Assembly: GCA_025267735.1 (NCBI GenBank)
Contig: CM046295.1
Coordinates: forward strand, 6,657,270-6,721,269
Direction: 5' to 3'
From: Mactra quadrangularis
Taxonomy: Eukaryota; Mollusca; Bivalvia; Venerida; Mactridae
Length of the DNA stretch: 64,000 nt
Positions 24,421-64,000 of the stretch are shown piece by piece. Every line of letters begins with the position of its first letter. The stretch's first letter is position 1. The notes beneath the pieces are model-generated. The model had not been told where the DNA came from and searched no databases. It was given only the letters and a program-made list of their open reading frames with translations. The position numbers and the translations under genes were made by a program.

Positions 24421-24439
24421 AGCTCTGGTCATGTTTATT

Positions 24440-33117: not shown

Positions 33118-33164
33118 ATCGCAGTGTGCAGCTAATATATTCTCTAGCCATTCTCCCACTTACC

Positions 33165-33345: not shown

Positions 33346-33360
33346 TATTTTTGTTGCTAC

Positions 33361-37204: not shown

Positions 37205-37345
37205 CTAAATACAGCCTTGGAACTCTAATGTTACTAAATATAGCTTTGGAACTCAAATGTTACTAAATACAGCTTTGGAACTCAAATGTTACTAAATATA
37301 GCTTTGGAAACTCAAATGTTACTAAATATAGCTTTGGAACTACAC
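37205..37345. repeat. 29-bp minisatellite
   Basis: Five copies of GGAACTCAAATGTTACTAAA-TATAGCTTT. Confidence 0.9.
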
Positions 37346-42420: not shown

Positions 42421-42438
42421 AGTACTTGAATTATCAAT

Positions 42439-45400
42439 ATGGAGGTTTATATTGAACACATTGCTACAGCGGACCTTCCAGCTTGGGACAGTTTTTGTGT
42501 GTTAGGGGTTGGACCTATCGTAAAATGCTCAAATCCCCCTCCCCCAGTGGCAACAATGTCCACTGTAAATATTGGCTTCAGGAAAAAGCAAAAGAGTTCT
42601 GCTAAAAAGAAATTGGATAAATCTGATCATGATTATGAATTGCCAAGAGGTATGCAAACGCCTAGAGAAATCATTGTGGAAGAAATAGTGAATGGTGTTG
42701 TGATTATTAAAAAGTTTATAGAAATTGAGGTGAAACATTTTTCAACTGATGACAGTCCTGATGTGAGTAGTTGTAGCCCATGCTCAAGTAGGTCAAATCA
42801 GACAATTGACCTTGATAGTGATAGATTTGACCTTGGAAGTGATAGATATGACATTGACACTTCAAGTGAGGCTGATAACGAAGCCTTGATAAACGAAATG
42901 AAATTTCGACTTGAAGAACTACTTGGAATACCTAATGAGCCTAGATCAACGATTCTAATCTCCGAAGAAGCTCTAACAGGGCCTGAGTTTGACACTGATT
43001 GTAAATCAAGCAGTGTTTCTAACAATGGATTTAGTTTAGTGTTTGATAGTCTATCTGATGACGTTTTTGAGACAGAGACGGACAAATCTGGAAGTCTTAA
43101 AGATTTGTCTATAACTTGTAGTGTACATAAGACTAAAGACAGAAATGCTGGAACTGAATTCGGAAATAAATCAGGTGATATTCGTTTACCAACTCATCGA
43201 AGTTTAGACTCAGATATAACATCCCATACCATATCATCGGAAGGTAGTAGTTTTGCCCTTTGGACTTTGTTTGGCTCCGAAAGTGGAGTTGATCGAACTG
43301 AACAGTTTATTCATTTGACTAAAAGTGGTAGTTTTGATCAAAAGAATGGTAAAACTTTAGTATCTGATGTTGAAAGTGGTAGTGGGTCAAACTCAAGCTC
43401 ACCTGGTGACAATAGTGAAAATAAATTTTCAAAATCCAACAGGGGAGGTTCAAATTCAAGTCAAAAACAGTGTGAGAATGAAATACAATCTAATAGTATG
43501 CATGTGTTAAGTGTGAACAATGGAAAGTTTGTTAAAGCTGAATCTGGGGTTGATATAGCAACTGATAAAAGTGAAGATGGTCAAACTTTTGATAATTTAA
43601 ACCATGTTCAAGGTCATGGTGACTTTGGTGGCGTTGGAAATGGTTGCCGTCAGAAGAAAGATTTATATCTTAATAACTGTGAATTGAATATAAACACTAA
43701 TGATTGCAATGAAGACGAATCGGATGAGAGTGTAAGCGTTTCTGTTGATCTGGAAATTTGTGTTCGTGTGTCATTAAATGAAGATGCAGCTACACAGAAT
43801 GTAAACGACCTTAGGCCTGGTACTCCTGTCGTTACTGACCCTTGTGTACTAATTGCAAGAGAGATTGTTGAAAAAGTTCTGGCAGCGGCTCAGCCTTTAG
43901 TGGCTCAGTCAACGGACAAAGCTTTGAAACAAAGACGTGAGAAACCTCATTTGTCAGTGTACGATGCTGACAATGATAATTATGGAAATAGGGGTGGAGC
44001 TGGAGGGGGTGGGTCTGGAGGGGGCGGAGCTAGAAGATTTAGTGGTGGGAGTTACGGTTCAGAATTTAGAGACAATGACAATGATAATGACCTTGACGAA
44101 AGTCAGAGTGAGGGTTTCTTTGAACAATCAACAGATTGGGATGGACAGTCTGATGTTACGAGTTGCAGGGAACTTGGAACTCACACTGATGTCTCTGCGG
44201 CTACATCTTTAGAGAGAATACCGGGTGTAGAAAGCCTTAATTGTAGTAGTATTAATCTGAGAGATGAGTTTGAAGCTGCCTTTGATAGTAAATCTAATGA
44301 ATCAGTTGTTGATTTTGAAGAATTTCAGAATGAGTTAAGTGGTCCATCCCATAGAACTTCAGAAGGAACAAGTGACGTAATGCATTCAAGCAATGTTGAA
44401 ATTACTGATGGAAATGATTTAATGTATTTGAGTGATAATGAAATTGGTGTTGATAATGAGCTTGATAAAACATTAGATAACAGTATTGAACATGTTACAA
44501 CAATGGCTTGTGATGTGATTGAAGAGGAAGATGAGGAATTCGAATGTTGTAGTGAAAGTTTTGAACTTGACTTTCCCAAGTTTGATATTACAGAGCAACC
44601 TTATAATGTATACTTTACTAATTATCCACATGTAAGTGTTCTATCTACCGTTATGGAAGAATCGGAAAGTAATACTACTACTGATTCTAATGGTACCAAG
44701 GATACCAAGAATGATAGAAGTTGCTATGGTGATAATAAAAAGATGGATAGAGTTTGTTTTGGTGGTGTTATTAAGGCAGACGAATGTTTCTATAGTAACG
44801 ATGACACCACTGAAACTGCGGCTTTTGGTGATGATGTGGATACTGGTGAAACTTCTGATGGTTTAACAGTTGAAGTTGGACATCATACATATAAATATGA
44901 TGACGATGATGAAGATGTTGGTGTTGTTGCTGTTAGAATTAATGATGATTATGGTGAAAATGATGATGGCAATGATGATGAGAATTATAGACTTGAAGAT
45001 AAATTCTCTGCAGAAGAGGTTGAAAAAGTTCTTAATGATTTAATTGAAGAAATCACTATGAATGTTGGAGAAGGTAGTGAACAGCCTAGTGCCATGGCAA
45101 TTATTATAGATGAAAATGATATGAATGCTAAACCTTCTTTTGAATACATTGAACTTACTGATCCTGACCACTGTGATGTTAATGTTCTTCTTAGTGAAGT
45201 CTTAGAAAAAGTTACACAAAATATGGGTGATGAAGATGAAAAGGACGAAACTGAACCACATCCATTGGCTGTCATAGTAGATGATGAAAGTTTTCAAAAT
45301 GGAAATAAAAGTTTATCGGAAGCTGTGTTGGGTATCAAGCCTCGAGATGACTTAGATCTAGTAATCATTGCACATCAGGAGTCTGAAGACAGTGATCTTG

Positions 45401-48400
45401 GTCTAGATGACTCCAGAGGCTTGGACAGTAGTGATGATTATATTACCTGTGTTAGCAGTGAGGATGAATATCATTATCCCGCTACTGATAAAGAAGATGA
45501 TGATGGTAACCATGACAACGATGATGTTCACTTTGAAGATACTAATACTGAATTTACTGAGGCATCTGATAATGGTGATTGTGGAAACGGCAATAATGGA
45601 GGAGATAAGTTAGTCTCTGTTAAACATGTAAGTGAAAAGGATTCGAAAATACTTATGCTTGATAGCGATACCGAAGCAAAATACGATTCAATACACAAAA
45701 GCCATGAATTCATGGAAACAACAGATGTTTCTATGGAGAAAATGGATGATAACAATATATCTATCGAGAAACCGGATGATGACAATGTTTCCATGGAGAA
45801 AGTGGATGATAACAATGTATCTATCGAGAAACTAGATGATGATAATGTTTCGATGGAGAAACTGGATGATGATAATGTTTCCATGGAGAAACTGGATGAT
45901 AACAATGTTTCCATGGAGAAAACAGATGATAACAATGTTTCCATGGAGAAACTGGATGATGACAATGTTTCCATGGATATTAACAATGTTTCTATGGAGA
46001 AACTGGATGATGACAATGTTTCCATGAAGAAAATGGATAATAACAATGCTTCCATGGTGAAACTGGATGATAACAATGTTTCCATGAAGAAAATTAATGA
46101 ATACAACGTGTCCATTGATAAACTAGATGAAAATGTAGACAATGGTGAAGAAGATACTGAAACACATGAGAAAACTGATATTGCAACTGACAAACCGTCT
46201 GAGATGGCCAATAAGATTGCAAATGATGAATTGTCAGAGAAAGCCGCTGACATTGCAACTGATGAATTGCTGCATGTGGACCAGACAGAGATAGGTAATT
46301 CTGAAAATGTCAAGGAGAATGAGGACATGGTTAGAAATACTGATGAAATTAATGATACAAACAGTTATTGTGTTGAAAATGAAATTGATATGACAGAACA
46401 AACCTACGAAGAAACTGTTATCAATATGTCAGACGAAAATAACTTCTCAGCTTATGAAGATAAGTTGACTGGTATTGTAAAGAACCATTCAATGGATATA
46501 CCACTAGCGATTAATAGTGAAGAATATGATTCAAATGGAGACAATTACACAATTGTTAAAGATAATGTTTTCAAGTCTCCAGAAAGTAACAATGACTTTT
46601 CTTTAAACCAGAGCACTGAACCAATAATGGAGATTAATCAAAATAATGAAGGAAATGTAAGATCAGATAATGAAAATGACAAAGTAAAAATAGATGGGAA
46701 ACATGATGATGCTATGTCACATGACACTGTGCTAATCAAAGAGGCTGCTGAAGTAAACATATGCTCAAATGATACAATCATTGAGAACAGCACTTTAGAG
46801 AATGAGGGTATAGATGTTGATAGAAACTCGAATGAAAAACTGGAACCAACTACAAATGATTACACTGATATGCTTGAAAACTTATCTGAAAATGAAGATA
46901 CAAGTACTGGGTTTATTACTGCTTCGAGTTCATATTTTGAGTTTGAAAATGCAGGCAGTAACATATATACTGATATTAAAATTGAAACATTGGCTGAAAT
47001 AGACATTGAAGCTGAAGATATGAGTAAAGCAGATCCAAATAAACCTGATATTAATGAAGAATCATTTGATATTGAAAACAGTGATAGCAAAGATAAAAAG
47101 AGTGATTTTGATAAAATGCATGGTGAACCTAATGAAACACAAACTACTGAGACACACATTGAGATTGCCGAAACACTTGTTGTGACTGATGAAAATCCGA
47201 AGGACAAAACACATGCTGAAAATGATGCGATAGTAAATGTAACCAGTGAAACATTTGTAGATGAAACAGAAGTTTATGAAACATCAGTGGAGGAAGCATA
47301 CATTGAAAAAAATGAAAGTCTCTCGGTATCCAATGAAACTGATGTTACTGAAACATCTGTGGAGATGATTGAAAACCCATTTGATAAAACACAAGATAAT
47401 GAAACCAAGTTTGATGAAGCTGAGTCTATTGAAACCTTAAATATGACTGTTGAAACACATATTGATAAAACCAATGTTGATATAAATCCAGGAGAAGAAA
47501 CATCAGTGGATGACACCCCAGTAGATACTGAGGTAATGCAAGTTAATGAAACACATGAATTTGCTACCCTAATTGGTATGGATGATACACTGCTTGTAAC
47601 CAATGAAATACCAGTTTTCAAAAATGAAAGATATTTAGATGAACTACAATTTGATGAAACCATAGCAGATGAGATGTCATTTAATAAAACACCAGTAGGC
47701 ATTGATGCATCTATCATTGGTGTAACTCCAATTGACAAAACACCAGTGATTACCGATGATACCGAAGGAAATAAAACACAAATGGAGACTGTCAAAACAC
47801 CAGTGGTGTCTGGTGTAGCACAAATAAGTGAAACATCAGTGGAGACTGATGAAACTCCAATTGATGAAACCCCCGAAATCACTGATGAAACACTGATTGT
47901 GACAGATGAAAAACATATCGATAAAACACAATTTGATAAATCACCAGTAGTCACCGATGTAACACAAGCAATTGAAACACCAATTGATGAAATATTGGTA
48001 GTCAGTGATGAAACACTGGTGGTGACTGATGAAGAACATGTTGATAAAACACCATTTAAGGAATCCCCAGTATTCATTGATAAAACACATGTAGATGTCT
48101 CACCAATTGATGAAACACCAGTAGTCACTGATGAAACATTGGTGGTGACTGTTGAAATGCAAGTGGTCACTGACGATGAAAAACAAGTCATTAAAACATC
48201 CATTGATAAAACGCCAGAAGTCACTAGTGAAACATCAGCAGTCACTAACAGAATACAATTTGATGAAGTTCCAATCAATGAAACACCCATGGTCACTGAT
48301 GAAACACCTGTTGCTGAAACACCAATTAATGAAACACTGCTTGTCACTGATGAAACACAGGTATTTACTGATGTAATAGAAGTTGATAAAATTCCAATTA

Positions 48401-51400
48401 ATAAAACACCCGTGGTCACTGATGAAATACAAGTTGATGAAACACCAATTGATGAAACTCTGAAAGTCACAGATGAAACACCTGTAAGTGAAACACACGT
48501 AGTTACTGATGAAATACAAGTTGATGAAACACCAATTGATAAAACAGTGGTAGTCACTGATGAAACACATATAGTTACCGATGAAAAACAAGTTAATGAA
48601 ACACCAATTGATGAAACACCAATTAATGAAGCACCAGTAGTCACTGATGAAATACCTGTAGTTACTGATGCAATACAAGTTGATAAAACACAAATTGATG
48701 AAACTACAGTAGGCACTGATGAAACAGCAGTAGTTACTAATGAAATACAAGTTGATGAAACACCAATTGATGAAACACTAGTAGTCACTGATGAAATTCA
48801 AGTTGATCAAACACCAATTGACGAAACACCGGTTGTTACTGATGGAATACAAGTCAATGAAACACCAAGTTATGAAACACAGATAGTCACTGATAAAACA
48901 CTGGTGGTCGTTAGTAAAATACAAGTCAATAAAACACCAGTTGATAAAACAACTGTAGTCACTGATATAACACTGATAGTCACTGATGAAACACTGGAGG
49001 TAACTGATGAAACACTGGAAGACACTGATGACACACCTGTAGTCACTGACGAAACACTGGTGGTCACTGATATAACACTGAATGTCACTAATGACACACC
49101 AGTGTTCACTGATGAAACACCGGTAGTCACTGAAGAAACACTTGTAGTCACTGATGAAACACCGGAAGTCACTAATGAAACACCGGTAGTCACTAATGAT
49201 ACACTGGTTGTCACTGATGAAACACTGGTAGTCACTGATGAAACAATGGTAGTCACTGATGAAACAAAGGTAGTCACTGATGAAACAATGGTAGTCACTG
49301 ATGAAACAATGGTAGTCACTGATGAAACACTGGTAGTCACTGATGAACCAATGGTAGTCACTGATGACACACCGGTGGTCACTGATGACACACCGGTGGT
49401 CACTGATGAAACACTGGAAGTAACTGATGAAACACTGGTAGTCACAGATGAAACACCGGTGGCTACTGATGAACCACCAGTGGTGACTGATGTAATAAAA
49501 GTCAATGAAACACCAATTAATGGAACAATGGAAGTCACTGATGATATACTGGCAGTTGATGATGAAATACAAGTCAATGAAATACCAATTGATGAAACCC
49601 TGGAAGTCACTAATGAAACATCGGAAGTCACTGTTGAAACACGGGTATTGACTGATGAAGAACAAGTCAATGAAACACCAATTGGTGAAACAGTGGAAGT
49701 CAGTGATGAAAAATCTCTGGTCAATGACGATGAAATACAAGTCAATAAAACACAAATTGATGAAACATCGAAAATCACTGATGAGACACTTGACATCACT
49801 GATGAAACGCAAGTGGTCACTAATGAAACATCTGAAGTCACTGATAAAACTCAGGAAATCACTGATGAAACGCCGAAGGTGACTGATGAAAAACTAGTAA
49901 ATGAAATACCAATTAATGAAGCACTGGTGGTTACTGATAAAACACCGACAGTGATGACTGATGAGACACCAGTGGTCATTGACGAAACACCCGAAGTGAC
50001 TGATGAAACACCGGAAGTCACTTATGAAACACTGGTAGTCACCGATGAAACACCGGAAGTCACTTATGAAACACTGGTAGTCACTGATGAAACACCAGAG
50101 GTCACTGATGAAACACTGGTGGTCACTGATGAAACACCAGAGGTCACTGATGAAACACTGGGAGTCACTGATGAAACACCAGAGGTCACTGATGAAACAC
50201 TGGGAGTCACTGATGAAACACCAGAGGTCACTGATGAAACACTGGTGGTCACTGATGAAACACCAGAGGTCACTGATGAAACTCCGGTGGACACTAATGA
50301 AACACTGGTAGTCACTGATGAAACACCAGAGGTCACTGATGAAACTCCGGTGGACACTAATGAAACACTGGTAGTCACTGATGAAACACCAGAGGTCACT
50401 GATGAAACTCCGGTGGACACTAATGAAACACTGGTAGTCACTGATGAAACACCTGTAGTCACTAATGAAACACCTGTAGTCACTGATGAAACACCGGTAG
50501 TCACTGATGAAACACCGGTAGTCACTGATGAAAAACTGGTAGTTACTGATGAAACACCTATGGTCACTGATAAATCACTGTTGGTCACTGATGAAACACC
50601 GGAAGTTACTGATGAAACACTGGTAGTCACTGATAAAACACCGGTGGTCACTGATGAAACACCGGTGGTCACTGATGAAACACCAGTAGTCACTGATGAA
50701 ACACCGGTAGTCACTGATGAAACACCGGTGGTCACTGATGAAACACCAGTAGTCACTGATGAAACAATGGTAGTCACTGATGAAACACTGGTAGTCACTG
50801 ATGAAACACCGGTAGTCACTGATGAAATACTGGTAGTCACTGATGAAACACTGTTGGTCACTGATGAAATGCTGTTGGTCACTGATGGAACACTGGTTGT
50901 CAATGATGAAACACCGGTGGTCACTGATGAAACCCCAGTAGTTACTAATGAGACCCTGGAAGTCACTGATGACACACCCATGGTCACTGATGATACACAG
51001 GTGGTCACTGATATAACACTGGAAGTCACTGATGAAACACCAGTGGTCACTGATGAAACACCGATGGTCACTGATGATACACCAGTGGTTACTGATGAAA
51101 CACTGGTAGTTACTGATGAAACCCTGGAAGTCACTGATGACACACCAGTGGTCACTGATGACACACCGGTGGTCACTGATGATACACCTGTAGTTACTGA
51201 TGAAACCCTGGAAGTCACTGATAAAACCCTGGAAGTCACTGATAAAACACTGGTAGTCACTGATCAAACACCAGAAGTCACTAATGAAATGCTGAATGTC
51301 ACTGGTGAAACACCGGTGGTCACTGATGAAACACTAGTTGTCACTGGTGAAATACAAGTCAATGAAACACCAATTAATGAAACACTGGAAGTCACTGACG

Positions 51401-54400
51401 ATGAAGTACAAATCAATGAAACACTAGTTGATGAAACACCTGAAGTCAGTAATAAAACACTGGTGGTCATTGATGAAACATCGTTGGTCACTGACAATGA
51501 AATACAAGTCAATAAAACAGTTGATGAAACATTGGAAGTGTTTAATGAAACACCGGTGGTGACTGACAAAATACAAGCTATTGAAACATCAATTGATGAA
51601 ACATTGGTAGTTGTTGATGTAACACCTGTAGATGAAACACCAATAATTGAAACAGTGGTAGTCATTGATGATACACATGTGGTGACTGATAAAATACAAG
51701 TCTATGAAACAGCGTTTGATAAAACATTGGTTGTCTCTAATAAAACACATGCAGTGACTGAAGAATCACCAATAAATGAAACTCTGGTTGTTACTGAAAT
51801 GCAACCTGTTGATATAAGAGTTGAATACTTTGAAACACAACCTGTTGAAATACAACCTGATGAAACTACTGAAACACAACCTATTAAAACACAACCTGTT
51901 GAAACGCAACCAGATGAAACACAACCTGTTGAAACACAACCTGTTGAAACACAACATGATGAAACACAACCTGTTGAAACACAACCCGTTGAAATGCAAC
52001 CAGATGAAACACAACCAGATGAAACACAACCAGTTGAAACACAACCTGTTGAAACACAACGTGATGAAACACAACCTGTTAATACAGAACCTGTTAAAAC
52101 ACATCCTGATAAAACACAGGATGTTGAAACACAACCTGATGAATCAAAACTTGTTAAAACATATGTTGAAACACAACCTGTTATGACACCACCTGATGAA
52201 ACTGTTAAAACACTACCTGTTGAAACACAAACTGGTGAAGCACAACCAGATGAAACTGTTGAAACACAACCTGGTAAAAATGTTGAAACTGTTGAAACAC
52301 TATCTGTTGAAACAGAATCTGTTGAAACACATCCTTATAAAAAAAATCCTGATGAAAATCCTGATGAAACATATGTTGAAGCACAACCTGGTGAAACACC
52401 TGTTGAAACTCTTGAAACACAACCTGATGAAACGCCAGTTGTTACCAAAATTGATGAATCACAGGTTGAAATTGTTGAAAGACAACCTTATAAAACATGT
52501 ATTGAAATAAGTAAAATAGTGAAGGAAAGTGATGCTGAAGATCATGGACATATTGTTGATGTGATAAATGTTGTGAATGGTCTAAAGAGTAGTGGTTCAG
52601 TAGATCACACAGAGATCACAGTGTCTTGTGAAGAAACAAGCAAAGTGGATAAACGTGATAAAAAGTCTGCACTTATTGATGCAAGAAAAGAAGATGCTAG
52701 TGATAAAATAGTTGGTAATGATTTTGATACTACGAAAGATGCTGGTCAAATGTCTGATAAAGCTGACGATTTTGATAGTGATGAAATAGTTGGGACTGTT
52801 CGTGATACTACAAAAGAAGCTGGACTAACTGCTGCTAAAGCTGAAGTTTGTGATAGTTTATCAGATAATTCTAAGGTTAATGATGGGAGTAATGATGCTA
52901 GTAGTGTTAACAGTACTGTTTACAAAAAAGATGTAAATAGTGTTGGTGATTCTGGTTCCAAGAAAAGTAACAATGCTAATTCTAATACTAAAGAGGAAAG
53001 CAAAAGTGCTGATTCTGGTTCCAAGAAAAAACTTAAAGCCAGAAAATCAAACTCTGAATCTATTGAGTATAGGAGAAAAGATTCCAAGAAAAGTGTTGAT
53101 TCTGTATCTGGATCGCAGGACAGTGATATCTTTGGGGATATAGATACCAATATGATTGGTTTAACAAAAGATGAGGTCAAGAGTGAAGTCACTAGATACA
53201 CCAAAGGAAAACCTAAGAGGGAATCAACCGACGTCAAAATGGTTGAGTCTACATATATTTTCTCTAATCAACAGCTCATTATTGTTATCAGTGAGGAGGC
53301 AAGTCATAGCAAACCATCCACAAGCAGTGGTAAGAAAGTAGCTGAGGTTTCATTTGATGAAAGTGCTGGTTTACATTGCATTAAAACTGCTTATGACAAA
53401 CATGCAGTAAGTAAGAGTAAAAAGCCCACTAGTATTAAACATGAAAGTGGTTCTACATCGACATCTTCATCTTCTTCCAAGTCAAAAAGGAAGTCATTGA
53501 AATCGCTTAAGAAACAGGAAAGAAATTGCAATATGGAAGAAAGTCCTTTATCTGATATTGATAAAGGAAAAGTGAAGGAGCGCCCATCTTCATCACGAGG
53601 TATGGAACCTCATCTTAAGACAGACAAAGAGCATCTCATTGTTGAAAAGTCTGAAGTTATTGATAATAGTTTTGAAAGTCCTTCGCTTCTTCCTGTTATT
53701 GAGTCACCCGATGAAGAGATTGTTAATGTTGATAAAATGGTCATTGGATCAAATAATATAGGTGAGGGAATATCATCCGATGGCTCTATTTCTGAATCTG
53801 GGTCAGATGGTGTGATTTCTGAATCTGGGTCAGATGGTGTGATTTCTGAATCTAGGTCAGATGGTGGGATTTCTGAATCTAGGTCAGATGGTGTGGTTTC
53901 TGAATCTAGGTCAGATGGTGTGATTTCTGAATCTGAGTCAGATGGTGTGATTTCTGAATCTAGGTCAGATGGTGTGATTTCTGAATCTGGGTCAGATTGT
54001 GTGATTTCTAAATCTGGGTCAAGTAGTGAAATTTTTGAAACTAAGTCAGTAGTTGAAATTTGTGATACTGGGTCATATGCGGCAATTTCTGAAAGTGATG
54101 TTGATATTGAACATACTCAATGTGATAAAGATATCAATGATACAATGGTTATGATGTCTTCTGTTGGAAATGTGAATGACTCAAATACCATTTCTGTTGT
54201 TAACAATGAAGATAAAGACAATGACAATGATGATAAAAGTGTGAAGAACGATGAGGAAATTATAGAAAGTGGAGATCTGTTTGTGCATACAGGTGATGAA
54301 GTACTAACAGAGGAGGATGGAATTGATGAAAGTGATACTGTTAAGACAGATGCAGCAATTAAAGATCCAGTAAATAATCTATCTATCAATTTTGAAGAGT

Positions 54401-57400: not shown

Positions 57401-60400
57401 CAGAAGAAAATGGTAATGTAGGAGACGGAAAAGCTGCTGGTAGTGATTTTGTTAAAACAGTTGCTGCATATAAATCACCTTTGGAAGAACCTGTCATCGA
57501 TGCTGTAGAAGGACGAAGCAATGAGGCTACAAAGACAAAGGTTGAGGAAGAAAGCAATTATGCTACTAAGAATGAGATTGATGAAGCAATTAAAATTGAC
57601 AGCTCTCATTGTGAACCTGAAGCTGAGACTTCGAATTGTGAAAGTGTGGTGCCTAAAAATAATGATGAGACAAGAATCGGTCTGGTACATGAAGAAAATA
57701 GTATTAATAGTGATGTAGGTGTTAATAAGGAAAGTATAGAAGTTCTTGTTGTTAATGATACTTACATTGAACAGCCTGAAACTGATTCTAAAAGGCAAAA
57801 TGATGGTGTAAGTGATGATGTTATGATCAATGCCAATTCATTAAGTGATAGTGTAAGTAAAAGAGTTGAACAAGCAAATAATGAGCTGGAACTAACTGAA
57901 AGTGAGATAGCTTCCAAAGCTATGGATATAAATGTGACTTCTAATGAATTGGAGAATGAAGTTCTTGATGCTACAGATGATGTACATGTACCAGAGGCAG
58001 TTGTTGAGAATAACCAGAATAAAGAGTATGATAAGAAAACAATGGAAATGGACTTGCCACATAGTACAACTGAAACTGAGTTTTCAAATAGTGGAAGTAT
58101 GGTGCCTAATGTAACTGACACTGCTATTGATGATGATAATATACAAGAAAAACATGATAAGGTTGCAGCTTCAATGAATGATGATGAAGTTGAACTGCAA
58201 TGTTTATCAGTAAATAATGATCCCCTGGCAGGAATGAGTGATGATAGTGAAAAAGTGCAAGAGTTGTCTGATAATAAAGATAATGATTTAATGGTGGATG
58301 GGAATGCATCTGAGGCTAATCTTTCTGATGCAGCATGTCATAAAGAAATAGAAGTGAATGCTTTTCCTGTTTCCCAAGAGGAGAGTGGTGATAGTAATGT
58401 TGATGAATTTTGTGAAAGTGACAGCAAGGTGAATGAGGTTAAACATGATAATACAATTTCAAAATTATTGAAGAACATTCATCTGAATGCTGGATATATG
58501 AATGATTTTACAATAAAAAAAGATTCTTCTTTAAACCAACCAAGTGATGTTTCTGATAAATCAGATAGTGCATCTAATGCAAAAGGTCAGAAAAGTGAAA
58601 ATGAAGATGCTAACACATTTGGTAGTAGTAAAGACAATTCAGTTGATTCTTCCGCATCAAATAAAAAAAGTTCAAGAGAACATGGTATCGTAGAAAACAA
58701 AACATATACCTCAGCTGAAAGTACAAAGGTTCAGAATATAACCCTGCAAAAAGAATCAAATGAGACAAAAGATACATCAAGGAAAACTCATTCAAAAGTT
58801 TCTAAGAGTAAAGAAAAAAGAAGCAAAGATAAGCCTAAAGCTGTTTCCGAAATAGATTTATCTATTGGCTTAGGCGTTAAACCTTTAGAAAATATGGAAA
58901 ATGAAGCAGATGAGACATCAAGGGAGTCTCAATCAAAATGTTCTAAAAGTAAAAGAAATAGAAGTAAAGATAAATATATAGCTAGTGAAGAAATAGCCAT
59001 ATCTTCTGACACAGGTGTGATACCTTTAGAAAATATGGAAAATGAATCAGATGAGACATTAAGAGAATCTAGATCAATAGTTTCTAAAAGTAAGGAAAAA
59101 AGTAGTAAAGATAAACAGAAAGAAACAGGTGTTTCACCTAACCTAGATGTGAACCCTTCAGAAAATGTAGCAAATGAGGTTTCTAACTCTAAGGCTAATG
59201 AACGGAAACCACAGTTATGTCATAGAAACACATTTGAAGTTGTTGCTGATGTGCATTATTCTATGGATGAAGAAGATTGTCGACCTAAAGTTTCCAAGTC
59301 AAAGAAATCGCTTGACAAAATTGATTTTAGTAAGAAAACATCTCATGACAAAATTGAAACGAGTAAAAAGTCATTGGATCATATTGATGTGGATAAAAAA
59401 TCACATAATGAGATAGATGACCTGAAGAAATCACATGATGAAATTGATGACCTAAGTAAGTCACAGGATAAAATAGATGATGTTATAATAGTGACTGATA
59501 AGAAAGACAAAAGTAGAAAGTCACGTGAGAAAAAGGACAAAAGTAAGAAATCTCACAATGAAATTGAGAAACATGAAAAATGTCATGATGAAATTAAGGG
59601 TGATAAGAAAACACGTGATGAAACTGAGGGAAGCAAGAAAACAAATGATAAAGTAAATGAAAAGTCACATGACCAAATGGAGGCAAGTAGGAAATCACAT
59701 GAAAAAACCACAGAAATGTCATGTGACCAAATTAAAGAAAGTAATAAATCTTATGATAAAGTAAATGAAAAGTCACATGACCAAATTGAGGCTAGTGAGA
59801 AAGCACAAGAAAAAAGCTTTGAAAAATCACATGATAAAGTGGAGTCAAGTAAAAAATCTCTTGAAAAAGTCAATGAAAAGTCACATGACAAAAAGGAGGA
59901 AGGTAATAAATCACATGATAAAATCAATGAGAAGCCACATGATCAAGGGGAGGCAAGTAAATCACATGATAGAGACAGTAAGGTTAAACTTAAGTCAAGT
60001 AAGAAGGCTAAAAAATCTAAATCCAAACATGATAAATATATACCCGATAGATTAATTCAAGGTCCTGATTATGATAATACTGTTCCTGGTGTGACGGAAC
60101 ATGATAACAGTACTGATAGTGTGGATGCTGGTCAGAACTTTATGGGAATTGAGGGCGATATTGCTGGAAGTGCATATGTCGAAGATTCAAAGAAGAAAAA
60201 CAAGAAAGAAAAGTCTAAAAGGGTTGATATTCCTGATAGGTTTATTCAGGGTCCTGATTATGATACCAATGCTCCTTCTACACATGAACAAGTTGCTGTT
60301 TTGCCATATACTGATAGTGTTATGACAGTTGAGTGCCAGGAACCTAATAACTCTATTGATATGTCAAATGCAGATGTAACCTCAAGTGAACTTGCTAGTG

Positions 60401-63400
60401 ATGTCGAAAAGGATGCATCAACCATTGATTCTAAAAATGGGACTGGAAATGAAATTGAAAAGGCTGAAATTGGTGAAGAGACTAGTCTACCAGAAAACAG
60501 TTACAGTGATGAAGATAATGCTGAAAATCTGGAGCAGCCTGTTCCAATAGCTGAGCTCTATGAGGAGAACCATGTTGTTCTTGAACCTGTACCGTATGAT
60601 GATAATAAAGATGTTCCTGAAATAAGGTTGCCAAGTGATGAAAAAGGAGTTCTTGAATCTGAGTTGCTAGATAATAAAAAAGTTGTTCTTGAACCTGTAC
60701 CGTATGATGATAATAAAGATGTTCCTGAAATAAGGTTGCCAAGTGATGAAAAAGTAGTTCTTGAATCTGAGTTGCTAGATGATAAAAAAGTTGTTCATGA
60801 ATCTGAGTTGCCAGGTGATGAAAAAGTAGTTTCTGAATCTGATTTGCCAGGTGATGAAAAAGTAGTTCTTGAATCTGAGTTGCTAGATAATAAAAAAGTA
60901 GTTCCTGAATCTGAGTTGCCAAGGGATGAAAAAGTAGTTTCTGAATCTGAGTTGCCAAGGGATGAAAAAGAAAATCCTGAATCTGAGTTGCCAGATGATG
61001 AAAAAGTAGTTACTGAGTCAAAATTGCCAGGTGATGAAAATTTAGTTTCTGAATCTGAGTTGCCAAGGGATGAAAAAGTATTTCCTGAGGCAAAATTGTC
61101 AGGTGATGAAAAAGTAGATCATGAGTCTAAATTGCCAGGTGATGAAAAAGTAGTTCCTGAGTTGCCAAGTGATGAAAATGTATTTCCTGAGTCAAAATTG
61201 CCAGGTGATGAAAATTTAGTTTCTGAATCTGAGTTGCCAAGGGATGAAAAAGTATTTCCTGAGGCAAAATTGTCAGGTGATGAAAAAGTAGATCATGAGT
61301 CTAAGTTGCCCAGTGATGAAAAAGTAGTTTCAGAGTCAAAGTTGCCAGGTGATGAAAAAGTAGTTCCTGAGTCAAAGTTGCCCAGTGATGAAAAATTAGA
61401 TCTAGAGTCAAAGTTGCCTGGTGATGAAAAAGAAGTCCATGATCCTGAGTTGCCAGGTGATGAAAAAGTAGTTCCTGAGTCAAAGTTGCCCAGTGATGAA
61501 AAAGTAGATCCAGAGTCAAATTTGCCTGGTGATGAAAAAGAAGTCCCTGATCCTGAGTTGCCAGGTGATGAAAAAGTAGCTTCTGAGTCTAAGTTGTCCG
61601 GTGATGAAAAAGTAGATCACATGTCTAAATTTCCTGGTGATGAAAAAGTAGTTCCTAAGTCAAAGTTGCCTGATGATGAAAAAGTAGATCTAGAGTCAAA
61701 GTTGCCTGGTGATGAAAAAGTAGTTCCTGAGTCAAAGTTGCCCGGTGATGAAAAAGAAGTCCATGATTCTGAGTTGTTAGGTGATGAAAAAGTAGTTCCT
61801 GAGTCAAAGTTGCCAGGCGATGTAATATTGGTTTCTGAATCTAACTTGCCAGACAATGAAAAAGTAGATCCTAAGTCTGGGTTGCCAAGTAATGAAAATG
61901 CAGTTCCTGAGTTGCCAGGTGATGTAGTTGTAGTTCCGGAGTCAAAGTTGCTAGGTGATGAAAAAGTTGTTCTTGAATCTGAGTTGTCTTGTGATGAAAA
62001 TGTAGTTCCTGAAACAAAGTTACCTAGTGATGAAAAAGTAGTACCTGAGTCTGAATTGCCTAATGATGAAAAAGAAGTTCATGAATCTGCACTTCCACCA
62101 TCAAATCAACACCAATATCAAGATTTAAGAAGTAGGAGTTTAAGCGATGTTTTATCAGACGGAAGGCTACCTCCAGATGGTGGAGAAGTTCTAATCAGTG
62201 CTAGAAATAGAACAGCTAGTCTGGGTAACCTGACAAAATATAAAACATTGACAGAATTTGATTGTAGAAAACAATTTTTTGAAACCAGGGGTAGAGTGAG
62301 CGGAGAGAGTCAGGATTTATCAATATTCAGAGAAAAATCTCGGCATTCCATAGATAAAAATACAACCACCATTATTGATGAAGGTCAAGGTCAACAGAAG
62401 GTCATTGAAAGTGAAGGTCAACTGCCATTATCTGAAGGTCAAGACCATCAGGTTGGCACACAAGGTGAAGGTCACCAGATAATATCTGAAGGTCAAGACC
62501 ATCAGGTTGGCACACAAGGTGAAGGTCACCAGATAATATCTGAAGGTCATGATCATCAGATTGTAACACAAGGTGAAGGTCACCAGATAATATCTGAAGG
62601 TCAAGGTCATAAGATTGTAACACAAGTTGAAGGTCACCAGATAATATCTGAAGGTCAAGGCGATCAAATTGGCACACAAGGTGATGGCCACAGTCATGTC
62701 AATGAAAATGACTTTCAAACTGATGGGAGACGGAATTCTGAATGTCTACAGTCCAATAACTACAGAAGGAGTATTGAACATGCAACCATTAAGGACATGT
62801 CAAACCTAACTGTGGTTGACATTGACCTTGACGGAGCAGGGGAGGAGTTTGAAGAAGAGGTTGGATGTGTAGATGCTGATGTGCTTTCAGTAAAGTTGAA
62901 AAAATGGTTGGCTGAAAGGCGGAGGTCATCACTTCAAGGTGAAACTGAACGATTTATAAAAGAGGCCTTTCCAGATGATATTTGCCCTACGCCAAGAAGA
63001 ATGCATCGCTTATGTGAACAGATTAAAAGAGAAACTAAAAGGAAAGATTCATTTATTAGGCAAAAGAATGAATCTATAGAAGGGGCTGCGCCGGGGTCAG
63101 GTCGAGATTTGTCTATCAGACGTTATGGGTCTGCTCAGAGTCAACGGAGTGTTGAATGCCTAGATAGGGAAATGACCCCTAGTCATCGGAGTCGTGATGG
63201 AAGCAGATCAAGACATCCTTCGATTGAAAGTATCGGAAGCCGAGGAGGCGGAGCTTCGCCAAAAGGAACGCCACACGCATCCCCATATGAGAGTATGGAA
63301 GATTTGCGATTTAAATGCCGGAAACCAGATTTTATCGAAGTAAGAAAATGTCAAAATGAGGCCAGGAACAGGAAAGCAGATTTTCTAATGAATGCTCATT

Positions 63401-64000
63401 TAAAAACTTTTGCAAAACCTAAACCTATTGTTGAGCCTAAGTTTGGCCCCTACAATCTTATCAAAGTGAAAAAGGGTCTGCCAAGGGATCAAAATTTTGA
63501 TAAAAGATATTACCATGATGCTAAAAAACTTGGGCTGTGCCCCAGAGTAGAAGTGGCCGAACAAGCAAAAAAAGTTGAATATGACATATACCGATATGAA
63601 CGTGAATTTAAACAAAATGAAAATCGGAATGTTCGGACATACGTTGAATCACAATATTTAAACTTAAATCAGATTTATCATCGAAGGAAGAAGCCTGAGC
63701 CGGGAGAAATAAGGCGAATCATCAGTCACAGCCAGATAACCAATAAACAAGTGGGATTGATGAATGCTGCCAGTGGTTATCAAAACGAACAGCCTATAGA
63801 CAGGAACGCTGATCAATACATGAATAGCAGATGTATGAATAACTATGGCAATTCATTGACACCGAAACTTTCATATCGTACATGTAATCAAGATAATGCA
63901 AACCAGTCTTATAGGAGTAATTTAGAACAGGGACTGGTTTACGATCGGGATAAAGAACAATATTATCTATTGGGACTTAGAGAACCACAAGATCCAAATG
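42439..64000 (+). CDS. giant repetitive acidic protein, at least 7,187 residues in one exon, 3' end outside the window
   Basis: An uninterrupted frame from ATG 42,439 (context AAT-ATG-G; in-frame TGA at 42,427) to the window end, partial at its C terminus. Layout by residue: 1-1096 acidic/Ser-rich with a Gly run near 519-531 and hydrophobic helices at 473-484, 861-872 and 914-925; 1097-1233 VSMEKLDDDN repeats; 1603-3120 VTDETPV-type heptads; ~3130-3354 ETQPV; 3780-3860 SDGVISESR; 4031-4066 EEFVERDDKNNV; 4167-4290 a less acidic island; 5445-5585 three ~47-residue units; 5615-5867 Lys/His-rich SHDKI repeats; 6061-6550 ELPGDEKVVPES; 6658-6752 GEGHQIISEGQ; ~6819-7187 basic and aromatic, possibly folded. 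No signal peptide, membrane segment or catalytic motif was seen, so it is probably cytoplasmic. I recognise no family. An upstream exon (20.3 kb) may join at acceptors ending 42,469 or 42,481, making the ATG internal or an alternative start. Giant exons of this style occur in ankyrin, futsch/MAP1, AHNAK and CMYA5 genes, but I see no matching domain. Confidence 0.93.
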   Translation, partial: MEVYIEHIATADLPAWDSFCVLGVGPIVKCSNPPPPVATMSTVNIGFRKKQKSSAKKKLDKSDHDYELPRGMQTPREIIVEEIVNGVVIIKKFIEIEVKHFSTDDSPDVSSCSPCSSRSNQTIDLDSDRFDLGSDRYDIDTSSEADNEALINEMKFRLEELLGIPNEPRSTILISEEALTGPEFDTDCKSSSVSNNGFSLVFDSLSDDVFETETDKSGSLKDLSITCSVHKTKDRNAGTEFGNKSGDIRLPTHRSLDSDITSHTISSEGSSFALWTLFGSESGVDRTEQFIHLTKSGSFDQKNGKTLVSDVESGSGSNSSSPGDNSENKFSKSNRGGSNSSQKQCENEIQSNSMHVLSVNNGKFVKAESGVDIATDKSEDGQTFDNLNHVQGHGDFGGVGNGCRQKKDLYLNNCELNINTNDCNEDESDESVSVSVDLEICVRVSLNEDAATQNVNDLRPGTPVVTDPCVLIAREIVEKVLAAAQPLVAQSTDKALKQRREKPHLSVYDADNDNYGNRGGAGGGGSGGGGARRFSGGSYGSEFRDNDNDNDLDESQSEGFFEQSTDWDGQSDVTSCRELGTHTDVSAATSLERIPGVESLNCSSINLRDEFEAAFDSKSNESVVDFEEFQNELSGPSHRTSEGTSDVMHSSNVEITDGNDLMYLSDNEIGVDNELDKTLDNSIEHVTTMACDVIEEEDEEFECCSESFELDFPKFDITEQPYNVYFTNYPHVSVLSTVMEESESNTTTDSNGTKDTKNDRSCYGDNKKMDRVCFGGVIKADECFYSNDDTTETAAFGDDVDTGETSDGLTVEVGHHTYKYDDDDEDVGVVAVRINDDYGENDDGNDDENYRLEDKFSAEEVEKVLNDLIEEITMNVGEGSEQPSAMAIIIDENDMNAKPSFEYIELTDPDHCDVNVLLSEVLEKVTQNMGDEDEKDETEPHPLAVIVDDESFQNGNKSLSEAVLGIKPRDDLDLVIIAHQESEDSDLGLDDSRGLDSSDDYITCVSSEDEYHYPATDKEDDDGNHDNDDVHFEDTNTEFTEASDNGDCGNGNNGGDKLVSVKHVSEKDSKILMLDSDTEAKYDSIHKSHEFMETTDVSMEKMDDNNISIEKPDDDNVSMEKVDDNNVSIEKLDDDNVSMEKLDDDNVSMEKLDDNNVSMEKTDDNNVSMEKLDDDNVSMDINNVSMEKLDDDNVSMKKMDNNNASMVKLDDNNVSMKKINEYNVSIDKLDENVDNGEEDTETHEKTDIATDKPSEMANKIANDELSEKAADIATDELLHVDQTEIGNSENVKENEDMVRNTDEINDTNSYCVENEIDMTEQTYEETVINMSDENNFSAYEDKLTGIVKNHSMDIPLAINSEEYDSNGDNYTIVKDNVFKSPESNNDFSLNQSTEPIMEINQNNEGNVRSDNENDKVKIDGKHDDAMSHDTVLIKEAAEVNICSNDTIIENSTLENEGIDVDRNSNEKLEPTTNDYTDMLENLSENEDTSTGFITASSSYFEFENAGSNIYTDIKIETLAEIDIEAEDMSKADPNKPDINEESFDIENSDSKDKKSDFDKMHGEPNETQTTETHIEIAETLVVTDENPKDKTHAENDAIVNVTSETFVDETEVYETSVEEAYIEKNESLSVSNETDVTETSVEMIENPFDKTQDNETKFDEAESIETLNMTVETHIDKTNVDINPGEETSVDDTPVDTEVMQVNETHEFATLIGMDDTLLVTNEIPVFKNERYLDELQFDETIADEMSFNKTPVGIDASIIGVTPIDKTPVITDDTEGNKTQMETVKTPVVSGVAQISETSVETDETPIDETPEITDETLIVTDEKHIDKTQFDKSPVVTDVTQAIETPIDEILVVSDETLVVTDEEHVDKTPFKESPVFIDKTHVDVSPIDETPVVTDETLVVTVEMQVVTDDEKQVIKTSIDKTPEVTSETSAVTNRIQFDEVPINETPMVTDETPVAETPINETLLVTDETQVFTDVIEVDKIPINKTPVVTDEIQVDETPIDETLKVTDETPVSETHVVTDEIQVDETPIDKTVVVTDETHIVTDEKQVNETPIDETPINEAPVVTDEIPVVTDAIQVDKTQIDETTVGTDETAVVTNEIQVDETPIDETLVVTDEIQVDQTPIDETPVVTDGIQVNETPSYETQIVTDKTLVVVSKIQVNKTPVDKTTVVTDITLIVTDETLEVTDETLEDTDDTPVVTDETLVVTDITLNVTNDTPVFTDETPVVTEETLVVTDETPEVTNETPVVTNDTLVVTDETLVVTDETMVVTDETKVVTDETMVVTDETMVVTDETLVVTDEPMVVTDDTPVVTDDTPVVTDETLEVTDETLVVTDETPVATDEPPVVTDVIKVNETPINGTMEVTDDILAVDDEIQVNEIPIDETLEVTNETSEVTVETRVLTDEEQVNETPIGETVEVSDEKSLVNDDEIQVNKTQIDETSKITDETLDITDETQVVTNETSEVTDKTQEITDETPKVTDEKLVNEIPINEALVVTDKTPTVMTDETPVVIDETPEVTDETPEVTYETLVVTDETPEVTYETLVVTDETPEVTDETLVVTDETPEVTDETLGVTDETPEVTDETLGVTDETPEVTDETLVVTDETPEVTDETPVDTNETLVVTDETPEVTDETPVDTNETLVVTDETPEVTDETPVDTNETLVVTDETPVVTNETPVVTDETPVVTDETPVVTDEKLVVTDETPMVTDKSLLVTDETPEVTDETLVVTDKTPVVTDETPVVTDETPVVTDETPVVTDETPVVTDETPVVTDETMVVTDETLVVTDETPVVTDEILVVTDETLLVTDEMLLVTDGTLVVNDETPVVTDETPVVTNETLEVTDDTPMVTDDTQVVTDITLEVTDETPVVTDETPMVTDDTPVVTDETLVVTDETLEVTDDTPVVTDDTPVVTDDTPVVTDETLEVTDKTLEVTDKTLVVTDQTPEVTNEMLNVTGETPVVTDETLVVTGEIQVNETPINETLEVTDDEVQINETLVDETPEVSNKTLVVIDETSLVTDNEIQVNKTVDETLEVFNETPVVTDKIQAIETSIDETLVVVDVTPVDETPIIETVVVIDDTHVVTDKIQVYETAFDKTLVVSNKTHAVTEESPINETLVVTEMQPVDIRVEYFETQPVEIQPDETTETQPIKTQPVETQPDETQPVETQPVETQHDETQPVETQPVEMQPDETQPDETQPVETQPVETQRDETQPVNTEPVKTHPDKTQDVETQPDESKLVKTYVETQPVMTPPDETVKTLPVETQTGEAQPDETVETQPGKNVETVETLSVETESVETHPYKKNPDENPDETYVEAQPGETPVETLETQPDETPVVTKIDESQVEIVERQPYKTCIEISKIVKESDAEDHGHIVDVINVVNGLKSSGSVDHTEITVSCEETSKVDKRDKKSALIDARKEDASDKIVGNDFDTTKDAGQMSDKADDFDSDEIVGTVRDTTKEAGLTAAKAEVCDSLSDNSKVNDGSNDASSVNSTVYKKDVNSVGDSGSKKSNNANSNTKEESKSADSGSKKKLKARKSNSESIEYRRKDSKKSVDSVSGSQDSDIFGDIDTNMIGLTKDEVKSEVTRYTKGKPKRESTDVKMVESTYIFSNQQLIIVISEEASHSKPSTSSGKKVAEVSFDESAGLHCIKTAYDKHAVSKSKKPTSIKHESGSTSTSSSSSKSKRKSLKSLKKQERNCNMEESPLSDIDKGKVKERPSSSRGMEPHLKTDKEHLIVEKSEVIDNSFESPSLLPVIESPDEEIVNVDKMVIGSNNIGEGISSDGSISESGSDGVISESGSDGVISESRSDGGISESRSDGVVSESRSDGVISESESDGVISESRSDGVISESGSDCVISKSGSSSEIFETKSVVEICDTGSYAAISESDVDIEHTQCDKDINDTMVMMSSVGNVNDSNTISVVNNEDKDNDNDDKSVKNDEEIIESGDLFVHTGDEVLTEEDGIDESDTVKTDAAIKDPVNNLSINFEELNETIPELNDRRQQIAITNNATELKSDFEVQVNDTIVDNKIDLEEFVERDDKNNVKEFVERYDKNDIEEFVEKDDKNDNFSLANSHCLEKMCESFVENNKSGFTLKNDEQTLLLTEVIAKSEDNVESVTGASNEDYASDVNVHIDDNTTREQGNDKVSEIGVNSGDNVTSEHENDTVSDIGVWKAPRNILPTGTSTKRLCRARSIMVSDANMKFGGLQRKPSLSQICRTSSVYKAVEMSYESQDLSFDRTDTIERALNDNFEKRGSPQSTIYDNVEDEDDDWDVDMDSLKNKITILSNVIGETNCKILLPQNAIDKGLDGASFSLDENRSESHDYLQTSLEAEANNCDIKACEDSTNVEFDEESTAVSDVEAIEEVMEGINLKDEDNTNEEAINADKTEDNKEENLVYVYMTNSQTEEVKIDDVVETKIEINVAEKTNVDIVDLTSEVEEDMSKVVKTEVEINNDTAESNVEICEDFKTEEVEIDNCVETKSDVNVAVKIDFDNVMAGDVESSEATKDEVELIENVKKEAEAENCQPVTGEGTFGEVQSNESATGEVQSNEHAIGVIKSNENVDISKACITETEIIEGVESDTKMNETPKTEVVVQIMVAEKPEISEIVTYDDDNVDPLKTDVVVEIYETTDEKDEIDEIAKNEVVEEINDITKTEEEIKEIHNNEGHMNEVSLTVEKNNESTKTNADNEVSGDTTKMTNLNAYKNTEVEMNEITKTGAEGDMKKAMNIEAEEIALAGEVINEVTKLETENCDVYETDSEKGSIEIAKSKIKGEVDEPVETEPEGATSVRFETIKIEDKNVTKYTEEKADIHISKFDHIANSTQELDDKGKPATNVISLEEERYPEHQQTLNIDVEKTAEDKTKASTSILVEQSDDALLEDDSRYFPNERVEEGHVQNEDQFSVPDQREVSHPRVEVISYIEVIEATSIDSFDGLYLGAQVQDDDVLQINGNVNAVATNVRAQEVDDNNLQMIDNENALDTNIGEVAKAGTEENGNVGDGKAAGSDFVKTVAAYKSPLEEPVIDAVEGRSNEATKTKVEEESNYATKNEIDEAIKIDSSHCEPEAETSNCESVVPKNNDETRIGLVHEENSINSDVGVNKESIEVLVVNDTYIEQPETDSKRQNDGVSDDVMINANSLSDSVSKRVEQANNELELTESEIASKAMDINVTSNELENEVLDATDDVHVPEAVVENNQNKEYDKKTMEMDLPHSTTETEFSNSGSMVPNVTDTAIDDDNIQEKHDKVAASMNDDEVELQCLSVNNDPLAGMSDDSEKVQELSDNKDNDLMVDGNASEANLSDAACHKEIEVNAFPVSQEESGDSNVDEFCESDSKVNEVKHDNTISKLLKNIHLNAGYMNDFTIKKDSSLNQPSDVSDKSDSASNAKGQKSENEDANTFGSSKDNSVDSSASNKKSSREHGIVENKTYTSAESTKVQNITLQKESNETKDTSRKTHSKVSKSKEKRSKDKPKAVSEIDLSIGLGVKPLENMENEADETSRESQSKCSKSKRNRSKDKYIASEEIAISSDTGVIPLENMENESDETLRESRSIVSKSKEKSSKDKQKETGVSPNLDVNPSENVANEVSNSKANERKPQLCHRNTFEVVADVHYSMDEEDCRPKVSKSKKSLDKIDFSKKTSHDKIETSKKSLDHIDVDKKSHNEIDDLKKSHDEIDDLSKSQDKIDDVIIVTDKKDKSRKSREKKDKSKKSHNEIEKHEKCHDEIKGDKKTRDETEGSKKTNDKVNEKSHDQMEASRKSHEKTTEMSCDQIKESNKSYDKVNEKSHDQIEASEKAQEKSFEKSHDKVESSKKSLEKVNEKSHDKKEEGNKSHDKINEKPHDQGEASKSHDRDSKVKLKSSKKAKKSKSKHDKYIPDRLIQGPDYDNTVPGVTEHDNSTDSVDAGQNFMGIEGDIAGSAYVEDSKKKNKKEKSKRVDIPDRFIQGPDYDTNAPSTHEQVAVLPYTDSVMTVECQEPNNSIDMSNADVTSSELASDVEKDASTIDSKNGTGNEIEKAEIGEETSLPENSYSDEDNAENLEQPVPIAELYEENHVVLEPVPYDDNKDVPEIRLPSDEKGVLESELLDNKKVVLEPVPYDDNKDVPEIRLPSDEKVVLESELLDDKKVVHESELPGDEKVVSESDLPGDEKVVLESELLDNKKVVPESELPRDEKVVSESELPRDEKENPESELPDDEKVVTESKLPGDENLVSESELPRDEKVFPEAKLSGDEKVDHESKLPGDEKVVPELPSDENVFPESKLPGDENLVSESELPRDEKVFPEAKLSGDEKVDHESKLPSDEKVVSESKLPGDEKVVPESKLPSDEKLDLESKLPGDEKEVHDPELPGDEKVVPESKLPSDEKVDPESNLPGDEKEVPDPELPGDEKVASESKLSGDEKVDHMSKFPGDEKVVPKSKLPDDEKVDLESKLPGDEKVVPESKLPGDEKEVHDSELLGDEKVVPESKLPGDVILVSESNLPDNEKVDPKSGLPSNENAVPELPGDVVVVPESKLLGDEKVVLESELSCDENVVPETKLPSDEKVVPESELPNDEKEVHESALPPSNQHQYQDLRSRSLSDVLSDGRLPPDGGEVLISARNRTASLGNLTKYKTLTEFDCRKQFFETRGRVSGESQDLSIFREKSRHSIDKNTTTIIDEGQGQQKVIESEGQLPLSEGQDHQVGTQGEGHQIISEGQDHQVGTQGEGHQIISEGHDHQIVTQGEGHQIISEGQGHKIVTQVEGHQIISEGQGDQIGTQGDGHSHVNENDFQTDGRRNSECLQSNNYRRSIEHATIKDMSNLTVVDIDLDGAGEEFEEEVGCVDADVLSVKLKKWLAERRRSSLQGETERFIKEAFPDDICPTPRRMHRLCEQIKRETKRKDSFIRQKNESIEGAAPGSGRDLSIRRYGSAQSQRSVECLDREMTPSHRSRDGSRSRHPSIESIGSRGGGASPKGTPHASPYESMEDLRFKCRKPDFIEVRKCQNEARNRKADFLMNAHLKTFAKPKPIVEPKFGPYNLIKVKKGLPRDQNFDKRYYHDAKKLGLCPRVEVAEQAKKVEYDIYRYEREFKQNENRNVRTYVESQYLNLNQIYHRRKKPEPGEIRRIISHSQITNKQVGLMNAASGYQNEQPIDRNADQYMNSRCMNNYGNSLTPKLSYRTCNQDNANQSYRSNLEQGLVYDRDKEQYYLLGLREPQDPN
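45727..46137 (+). repeat. coding repeat 1: 10-residue VSMEKLDDDN, 14 units
   Basis: 30-bp period. Thirteen full-length or nearly full-length units and one shortened unit (VSMDINN, seven residues, near 45,967). Each pairs a Ser before a basic residue with an acidic tail. Confidence 0.95.
47245..51800 (+). repeat. coding repeat 2: VTDET(P/L)(V/E) heptads, ~1,500 residues
   Basis: 21-bp period. The core at 48,955-51,340 is nearly pure heptads (about 110 units). The flanks mix in 5-7-residue variants such as IQVDETPIDET and IDKTP. Thr and acidic residues dominate, with no aromatic residues over long spans. Higher-order units occur near 50.0-50.45 kb. Confidence 0.95.
51826..52500 (+). repeat. 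coding repeat 3: ETQPV/ETQPD pentapeptides
   Basis: 15-bp period, about 25 good units at 51,835-52,080, then diverged (VKTYVETQPV, ETVETLSVETES). Confidence 0.93.
53776..54018 (+). repeat. coding repeat 4: SDGVISES(R/G) nonapeptide, 9 units
   Basis: 27-bp period, nine contiguous units with very few changes, suggesting recent expansion. Downstream units (SSSEIFETK) decay. Confidence 0.95.
54529..54636 (+). repeat. coding repeat 5: EEFVERDDKNNV, 3 units
   Basis: 36-bp period, three units with K/E, R/K and D/Y exchanges. Confidence 0.9.
58771..59190 (+). repeat. coding repeat 6: three ~47-residue units
   Basis: Units start near 58,771, 58,909 and 59,050. Each runs DETSRES..., then a basic SKSKEKRSKDK core, then (V)xPLENMENE. 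The third is the most diverged. Confidence 0.88.
59281..60030 (+). repeat. coding Lys/His-rich SHDKIE repeat block
   Basis: Irregular 11-20-residue units such as KKSHDEIDDL and NEKSHDQIEAS. It is strongly basic within an otherwise acidic protein and ends in KSSKKAKKSKSK. Confidence 0.85.
60040..60267 (+). repeat. duplicated IPDR(L/F)IQGPDYD motif
   Basis: Two copies, 60,040-60,081 and 60,229-60,267, each directly after a Lys-rich run. The identity of 9 of 11 core residues amid disordered sequence suggests a binding motif. Confidence 0.8.
60619..62088 (+). repeat. coding repeat 7: ELPGDEKVVPES dodecapeptide, ~40 units
   Basis: 36-bp period. Early copies sit in a larger 108-bp duplication (VLEPVPYDDNKDVPEIRLP at 60,577 and 60,685). 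Variants alternate Gly/Ser/Arg before DEK. Antisense frames stay open for the same reason and are not genes. Confidence 0.95.
62410..62694 (+). repeat. coding repeat 8: GEGHQIISEGQDHQVGTQ, about 5 units
   Basis: 54-bp period. At the DNA level each unit carries two or more GAAGGTCA words; the same AAGGTCA words occur in the 20.3-kb exon. Confidence 0.93.

Follow-up and report, generated by a model that had tools for sequence, protein, structure and literature searches.

ARM-TIR proteins, in which armadillo (ARM) repeats occur together with a TIR domain, appear in lists of mollusc proteins, with oyster and Aplysia named in the excerpted text of two sources (PMC4346834, PMC9334734). In SARM1, as excerpted, the ARM part keeps the TIR domain inactive and the assembled TIR is an NADase (PMC8635717), and the activity of C. 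elegans TIR-1 is described, again in excerpt, as requiring a phase transition (PMC8923663). The excerpt on ecTIR-DC family 6 gives ARM-like repeats, a death domain and two TIRs for this family (PMC6836662). Among proteins with exceptionally long exons, the axonal targeting of ankyrin-G depends on its giant exon, according to the excerpt of PMC9467607. A search of the open literature at listing level found no TIR gene described as having a giant exon.

The locus compared here with these systems begins in a window of 64,000 nucleotides, meaning the whole stretch of DNA under study (C3:6657270-6721269 of the 979-Mb host assembly, which has 447 contigs), and the genome was also read past the window. 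The initial annotation had assigned a single long frame in this window to a protein of unknown family, with no domain recognised. In the most economical model, the frame is exon 2 of 18 in a gene that is probably of the ARM-TIR type, and "unknown family" was probably too narrow a description; the recognisable domains fall outside the window. The lack of a recognised domain holds for the giant exon itself, where Pfam matches only low-complexity sequence, and would not hold for the gene as modelled, which has ARM and TIR downstream. The 5′ part of the gene is laid out as follows.

20288..21056, + strand: exon 1, predicted to open the coding sequence (256 aa + 1 nt), with an ATG in good context and out-phase 1
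21057..42547, + strand: intron 1, 21.5 kb
42439..42547, + strand: 5′ part of the frame as initially annotated, probably intron, or else an alternative first exon start (ATG 42439)
42,548-64,057, + strand: giant exon 2 by its best splice borders (window part 42548..64000, the last 57 bp beyond)

The giant exon is 21,510 bp long, a multiple of three, and contributes 7,170 codons. Its acceptor is pyrimidine-rich (CCCCCTCCCCCAG/TG, the exon starting at 42,548) and ranks in the top 1.5% of 935 AG sites, and since ATG 42,439 sits just 5′ of this good acceptor, it is probably not the start codon. Beyond the window, the host genome keeps the frame open until a TAG at 64,060. Without splicing, the frame would close there; this TAG, however, falls within the donor ACG/gttagt, which would place the end of the exon at 64,057, in phase 1. 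On the 5′ side, a degenerate 29/57-bp tandem repeat (TTGAATTTCATAACATTTGAAATTAGTGC) at 42,188-42,399 adjoins the giant exon.

A further 16 exons lie 3′ of the giant exon, from 84,512 to a stop at 111,758, and join in frame. The resulting 18-exon model runs from an ATG to one terminal stop over 25,017 nt and encodes 8,338 aa (926 kDa, pI 4.3), and each of its 17 introns has GT-AG borders and preserves the frame. The phases (in/out) are -/1 for exon 1, 1/1 for the giant exon, 1/1 for exon 3, 1/0 for exon 4 and 0/1 for exon 5. Splice sites, reading frame and plausible domains guided the choice of exons (10, 12 and 18 were set by eye), and because they were chosen for fit, the matching phases amount to consistency, not to an independent proof of each exon. 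The exon 1 donor (CAGG/gtaaaa) is moderate, with a score of 0.4 that 6.6% of GTs reach. A scan of intron 1 gave one phase-compatible candidate exon (29089-29145, score 5.9), which was kept out of the model, and the exon scan over 90-113 kb listed 16 candidates, five of which were left out (90,476; 96,235; 98,111; 101,438; 111,691). The candidate at 96,235 resembles a repeat present elsewhere in the window. A frame at 94,545-94,742 that looked coding was dropped: it had no Pfam match and no exon scan proposed it.

Other features of the window surround this gene. Upstream, exons of a DHFR gene lie on the - strand at 10,088-12,433, where matches to PF00186 are colinear (profile 2-24, 37-76 and 71-103) and one of the three passes the cut-off. 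A 523-aa frame at 2,959-4,530 on the + strand matches zf-RVT below the cut-off (E 9.2e-5; 23.5 bits against 27.5) and is probably the remnant of a LINE-type element. A triplet-like array at 14,511-14,920 holds several open frames, on the forward and the reverse strand alike, which read as poly-I, poly-H, poly-D and poly-M.

The exon 2-3 junction is the weak link of the gene model. Given the consistency of phases and splice sites, we infer that this junction is probably used and that the giant exon and the ARM-TIR exons share one transcript. The alternative of two genes would combine exon 1 and the giant exon into a disordered protein of ~7,430 residues that ends at TAG 64,060, with a separate 910-aa ARM-TIR protein beginning at ATG 84,517; we consider it unlikely, though not negligible. 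The giant frame does have its own stop, and exon 3 carries an ATG in the context ACCATGG (MATDLSFSS) with an in-frame stop 5′ of it at 84,487, so that the ARM-TIR protein could start without the giant exon. A paralogue on C18, described below, apparently also has its own start, and the stretch read there shows no giant exon. Against two genes, the giant frame ends precisely at a phase-matching donor, which ranks in the top 1.7% of 1,220 intronic GT sites and whose own gtTAGt makes the stop, and the exon 3 acceptor (84,512) is in the right phase. This acceptor is nonetheless ordinary (score -1.6, reached by 28% of intronic AGs), and 33 of 354 60-nt windows within the giant exon hold a donor of equal strength and the same phase. 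Between the two parts lie 20 kb, intron 2 of the model, in which no frame exceeds 172 aa (+ strand; 113 aa on the - strand) and these longest frames are of low complexity, a result that also counts against two genes. With 21 in 4 kb, AATAAA/ATTAAA sites are common and do not discriminate between one gene and two. Both readings could hold if one gene makes a promoter-derived short form as well as the giant form.

Under the single-gene model, the giant exon has the same phase at both ends and a length that is a multiple of three, so it could be included or skipped in frame; skipping it gives a predicted short form of 1,168 aa. Symmetric exons are not unusual here, though: they account for seven of the 18 in the model. 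Exons 3 and 4 are Ser-rich and, among the candidates scored, match only themselves in the host genome (E 0.01), while exon 5 matches itself and one further site at chance level (E 6). We further note an LSQELASKLDI-type motif in exon 4 (89,086-89,873; C3:6746355-6747142), present several times within the Ser-rich linker just 5′ of the ARM part and possibly a docking motif.

Armadillo repeats and a TIR domain are found within the last 578 residues of the 8,338-aa model. The TIR domain, encoded by exons 12-14 (about residues 8,096-8,216), matches PF13676 (TIR_2) with an E-value of 5.1e-21 and 75.8 bits (cut-off 28). The armadillo profile PF00514 scores 27.7 bits (cut-off 20.6), or 22 bits in the 910-aa form, and PDB matches of the ARM part are to engineered ARM proteins, Vac8 and importin alpha; together, the profile and PDB matches begin at about exon 7 and extend to exon 11. 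A piece covering exons 5-9 had no Arm match in Pfam, for which reason exons 5-6 (in a wider reading, exons 5-7) are called armadillo by eye. From about residue 8,269, exons 16-18 encode an end that is perhaps SAM-like, a weak assignment, as SAM_2 matches at E 0.11 with 13.1 bits, below the cut-off of 20.5, and a PDB search with this end returned no match. Within the TIR domain, the Glu of a CRTEAEY motif aligns with a Glu of the Cat1 TIR in a weak match (E 1.1) and is kept in all five paralogue TIR loci that were aligned. This position may correspond to the catalytic glutamate of TIR NADases.

A search of the host genome with a query that included the TIR part gave at least 22 matches, seven of which are the giant-exon gene itself. 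The others, at least 15 matches in at least eight further places, are confined to that TIR part; these counts are lower bounds, since the search scores only the best first candidates. One of these places is the C18 paralogue (C18:5,015,000-5,044,999), an ARM-TIR gene in which weak ARM-like exons precede the TIR. It appears to begin with its own ATG (MGSAVSSSK), and 18.8 kb read upstream contained no forward frame longer than 97 aa. Its MGSAVSSSK start may be a myristoylation signal. Within the same paralogue, on the opposite strand, lies a 1,280-aa frame that looks LINE-like by eye.

The giant exon most likely encodes an acidic, mostly disordered region of an ARM-TIR protein. Acidic residues far outnumber basic ones (1,698 D+E vs 685 K+R), and aromatic residues and cysteines are scarce (4.2 per 100). 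When the giant region is cut into 100-aa windows, charge-hydropathy classes 130 of 142 as disordered, as it does exon 1, compared with none of seven in the ARM-TIR part; exons 3-4 fall marginally on the folded side. A single-sequence AlphaFold model of 404 aa near the end of the giant exon has a mean pLDDT of 40.9, with 0 of 404 residues at 70 or above, and is not usable. Among the host-genome candidates scored, the same 404 residues match only themselves (E 1), and so does the 1,050-residue start of the giant region (E 0.01). The tandem arrays and the unique C-terminal stretch are given here.

45720..46130, + strand: 30-bp array, MEKLDDDNVS-type repeats
48942..51352, + strand: 21-bp array, VTDETPV repeats, with higher orders of 42 and 63 bp
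51830..52399, + strand: 15-bp array, ETQPV repeats
53788..54049, + strand: 27-bp array, ISESGSDGV repeats
59621..59961, + strand: 54/108-bp array, KSHDK-type repeats
60627..62088, + strand: 36-bp array, LPGDEKVVPESK repeats
62411..62691, + strand: 54-bp array, GEGHQIISEGQDHQIVTQ repeats
62788..63999, + strand: unique stretch at the C-terminal end of the giant exon, with helices in a low-confidence model and itself as its only match among the host-genome candidates scored

Two Pfam matches in the giant exon lie above their cut-offs, to the C-terminus of herpesvirus GP350 (E 4.1e-10) and to Drf_FH1 (E 6.6e-20). Both were rejected, by judgement, as composition matches because their best stretches are low-complexity repeat arrays. 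A PDB search with the C-terminus of the giant exon gave 0 matches at E 1, Rfam at gathering cut-offs and the tRNA search each gave 0, and a scan for short linear motifs gave nothing reliable. Homologues of the C-terminal part were sought in three length classes (891, 2,287 and 2,850 word-sharing candidates, in length ranges that left out candidates of 708-1,044 and 3,326-3,952 aa), and no match was found at E 1e-3, 10 and 1, respectively. This absence of homologues is weak evidence of novelty, as the database may cover molluscs or animals thinly.

Acidic disordered repeats in a giant exon that may form an in-frame cassette would also suit a giant-exon ankyrin or a cytoskeletal protein of the MAP1/futsch type whose known domains lie elsewhere; giant-exon ankyrins are described in the excerpted PMC9467607. 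This reading is highly improbable: a Pfam scan of the giant exon (in four pieces), exon 1 and the downstream exons matched no ankyrin repeat, ZU5, death or MAP1 domain, the exons that follow in phase code for ARM and TIR, and upstream there is a DHFR gene on the opposite strand.

The claim that the frame from 42,439 stays open to the last base is borne out, with 0 stops in the 7,187 codons of 42,439-63,999, where the end of the window (base 64,000) is reached; the nearest in-frame stop on the 5′ side is the TGA at 42,427. Over the same 21.5 kb, the other forward frames contain 428 and 1,651 stops and the three reverse frames 270, 157 and 492. Chance was modelled by 200 Markov-1 simulations of the same 21.5 kb, read in three forward frames, in which the longest open runs averaged 95 codons and reached a maximum of 138. 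Codon position 1 has the highest G+C in 15 of 15 blocks (each at most 1.5 kb), unique blocks included. Furthermore, the periods reported by TRF are divisible by three in all 65 rows within the giant exon vs 13 of 39 in the flanking non-coding DNA (periods below 9 dropped); as TRF rows overlap, they are not independent of one another.

The arrays themselves are a weaker coding control, as only two of the seven are clearly expected to hold stops. When the changes between repeat units are placed at random, the probability of no stop is 0.002 in the 36-bp array and 0.012 in the 54-bp KSHDK array, and it ranges from 0.14 to 0.91 in the other five. Repeat-unit pN/pS is below 1 in five of the seven arrays (0.44, 0.70, 0.80, 0.46 and 0.60, values given without a significance test), equals 1.00 in one and is undefined in another, which has 0 synonymous changes. 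Units with less than 70% identity to the consensus were left out of this test, so that 65/66, 18/40, 8/8, 5/5, 9/13, 6/6 and 17/19 units were kept in the seven arrays, and because units were cut by a fixed period, indels shift some of them.

A frame that is open by chance or through its repeats, an assembly artefact, or non-coding DNA is extremely improbable here: although 36.8% of the giant exon is tandem repeat and five of its seven arrays are expected to hold few or no stops by chance, the 63% outside the TRF arrays is likewise open, no simulated run exceeds 138 codons, the codon-position bias recurs in every block and each TRF period within the exon is divisible by three. The giant frame is thus a real protein-coding exon of ~21.5 kb, and the initial annotation was right both in calling it a single coding exon and in observing that its unique stretches are as open as its repeats. 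It is plausibly among the largest exons known in animals, where the human MUC16 and titin exons measure about 17-22 kb.

Taking the single-gene model together with analogies to described proteins, we infer the following isoforms, location and function. The protein would begin with the disordered 256 aa of exon 1 and continue through the giant region of ~7,170 aa into the Ser-rich linker, which would be followed by a helical segment, the armadillo repeats, the TIR domain and a short SAM-like C-terminus. The 8,338-residue protein is probably intracellular. By analogy with SARM1, its ARM-TIR end would be a signalling module in which ARM may act as a sensor or autoinhibitor and TIR as a self-assembling scaffold or an NADase. 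When included, the giant region could serve as a very long acidic spacer or as a multivalent docking platform, and in this way tether TIR modules, space them or concentrate them. Cassette splicing of the kind known for giant exons in neuronal ankyrins would then yield either the 8,338-aa form, with the giant exon in, or the 1,168-aa form, with the giant exon skipped. We tentatively propose, as a reading with a serious though not a favourable chance of being correct, a giant ARM-TIR isoform of ~0.93 MDa in which a symmetric 21.5-kb cassette adds a 7,170-residue acidic disordered region, such that splicing would decide between a soluble TIR effector and a long-range tether or condensate-forming platform, the trick of the giant ankyrins having evolved independently. 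The host of such a cassette would be a protein of the innate-immune or axon-death type.

If the junction is used, the giant protein would be, to our knowledge, by far the largest TIR-domain protein, and the locus would be a second example, independent of the first, of a signalling scaffold that has gained a giant in-frame exon. It would also offer a direct way to ask how very large disordered regions affect TIR assembly and a way to ask how the splicing machinery recognises a 21.5-kb exon. Even unlinked to ARM-TIR, a 21.5-kb coding exon and a disordered protein of ~7,400 residues are exceptional.

The giant ankyrins G and B provide a close parallel for the exon, as there too one giant exon gives rise to a special isoform of a scaffold protein, in the excerpted account of PMC9467607. 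Unlike in those ankyrins, no ankyrin, ZU5 or death domain was matched in the giant-exon gene. The giant exon here is about three times larger than the giant exons of ankyrins G and B. For the domains, SARM1 and TIR-1 are similar in having an ARM part and a TIR domain, possibly with a SAM, and by analogy with them the protein would work through TIR self-assembly (excerpts of PMC8635717, PMC8923663 and PMC7075850). SARM1 has the order ARM, tandem SAM and C-terminal TIR, however, whereas here the weakly matched SAM-like end comes after the TIR, and ARM is preceded by a disordered region of 7,170 aa; the domain order rules out identity with SARM1. The ecTIR-DC family 6 proteins likewise share ARM-like repeats and TIR with the gene described here, and identity with this family is ruled out by the single TIR_2 stretch and the lack of a death domain match. 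The mollusc ARM-TIR proteins have the same pairing of armadillo repeats with a TIR domain, and differ in that the excerpts of PMC4346834 and PMC9334734 make no mention of a giant N-terminal region. By its domains, the protein files as an ARM-TIR protein, and the giant exon is what is new.
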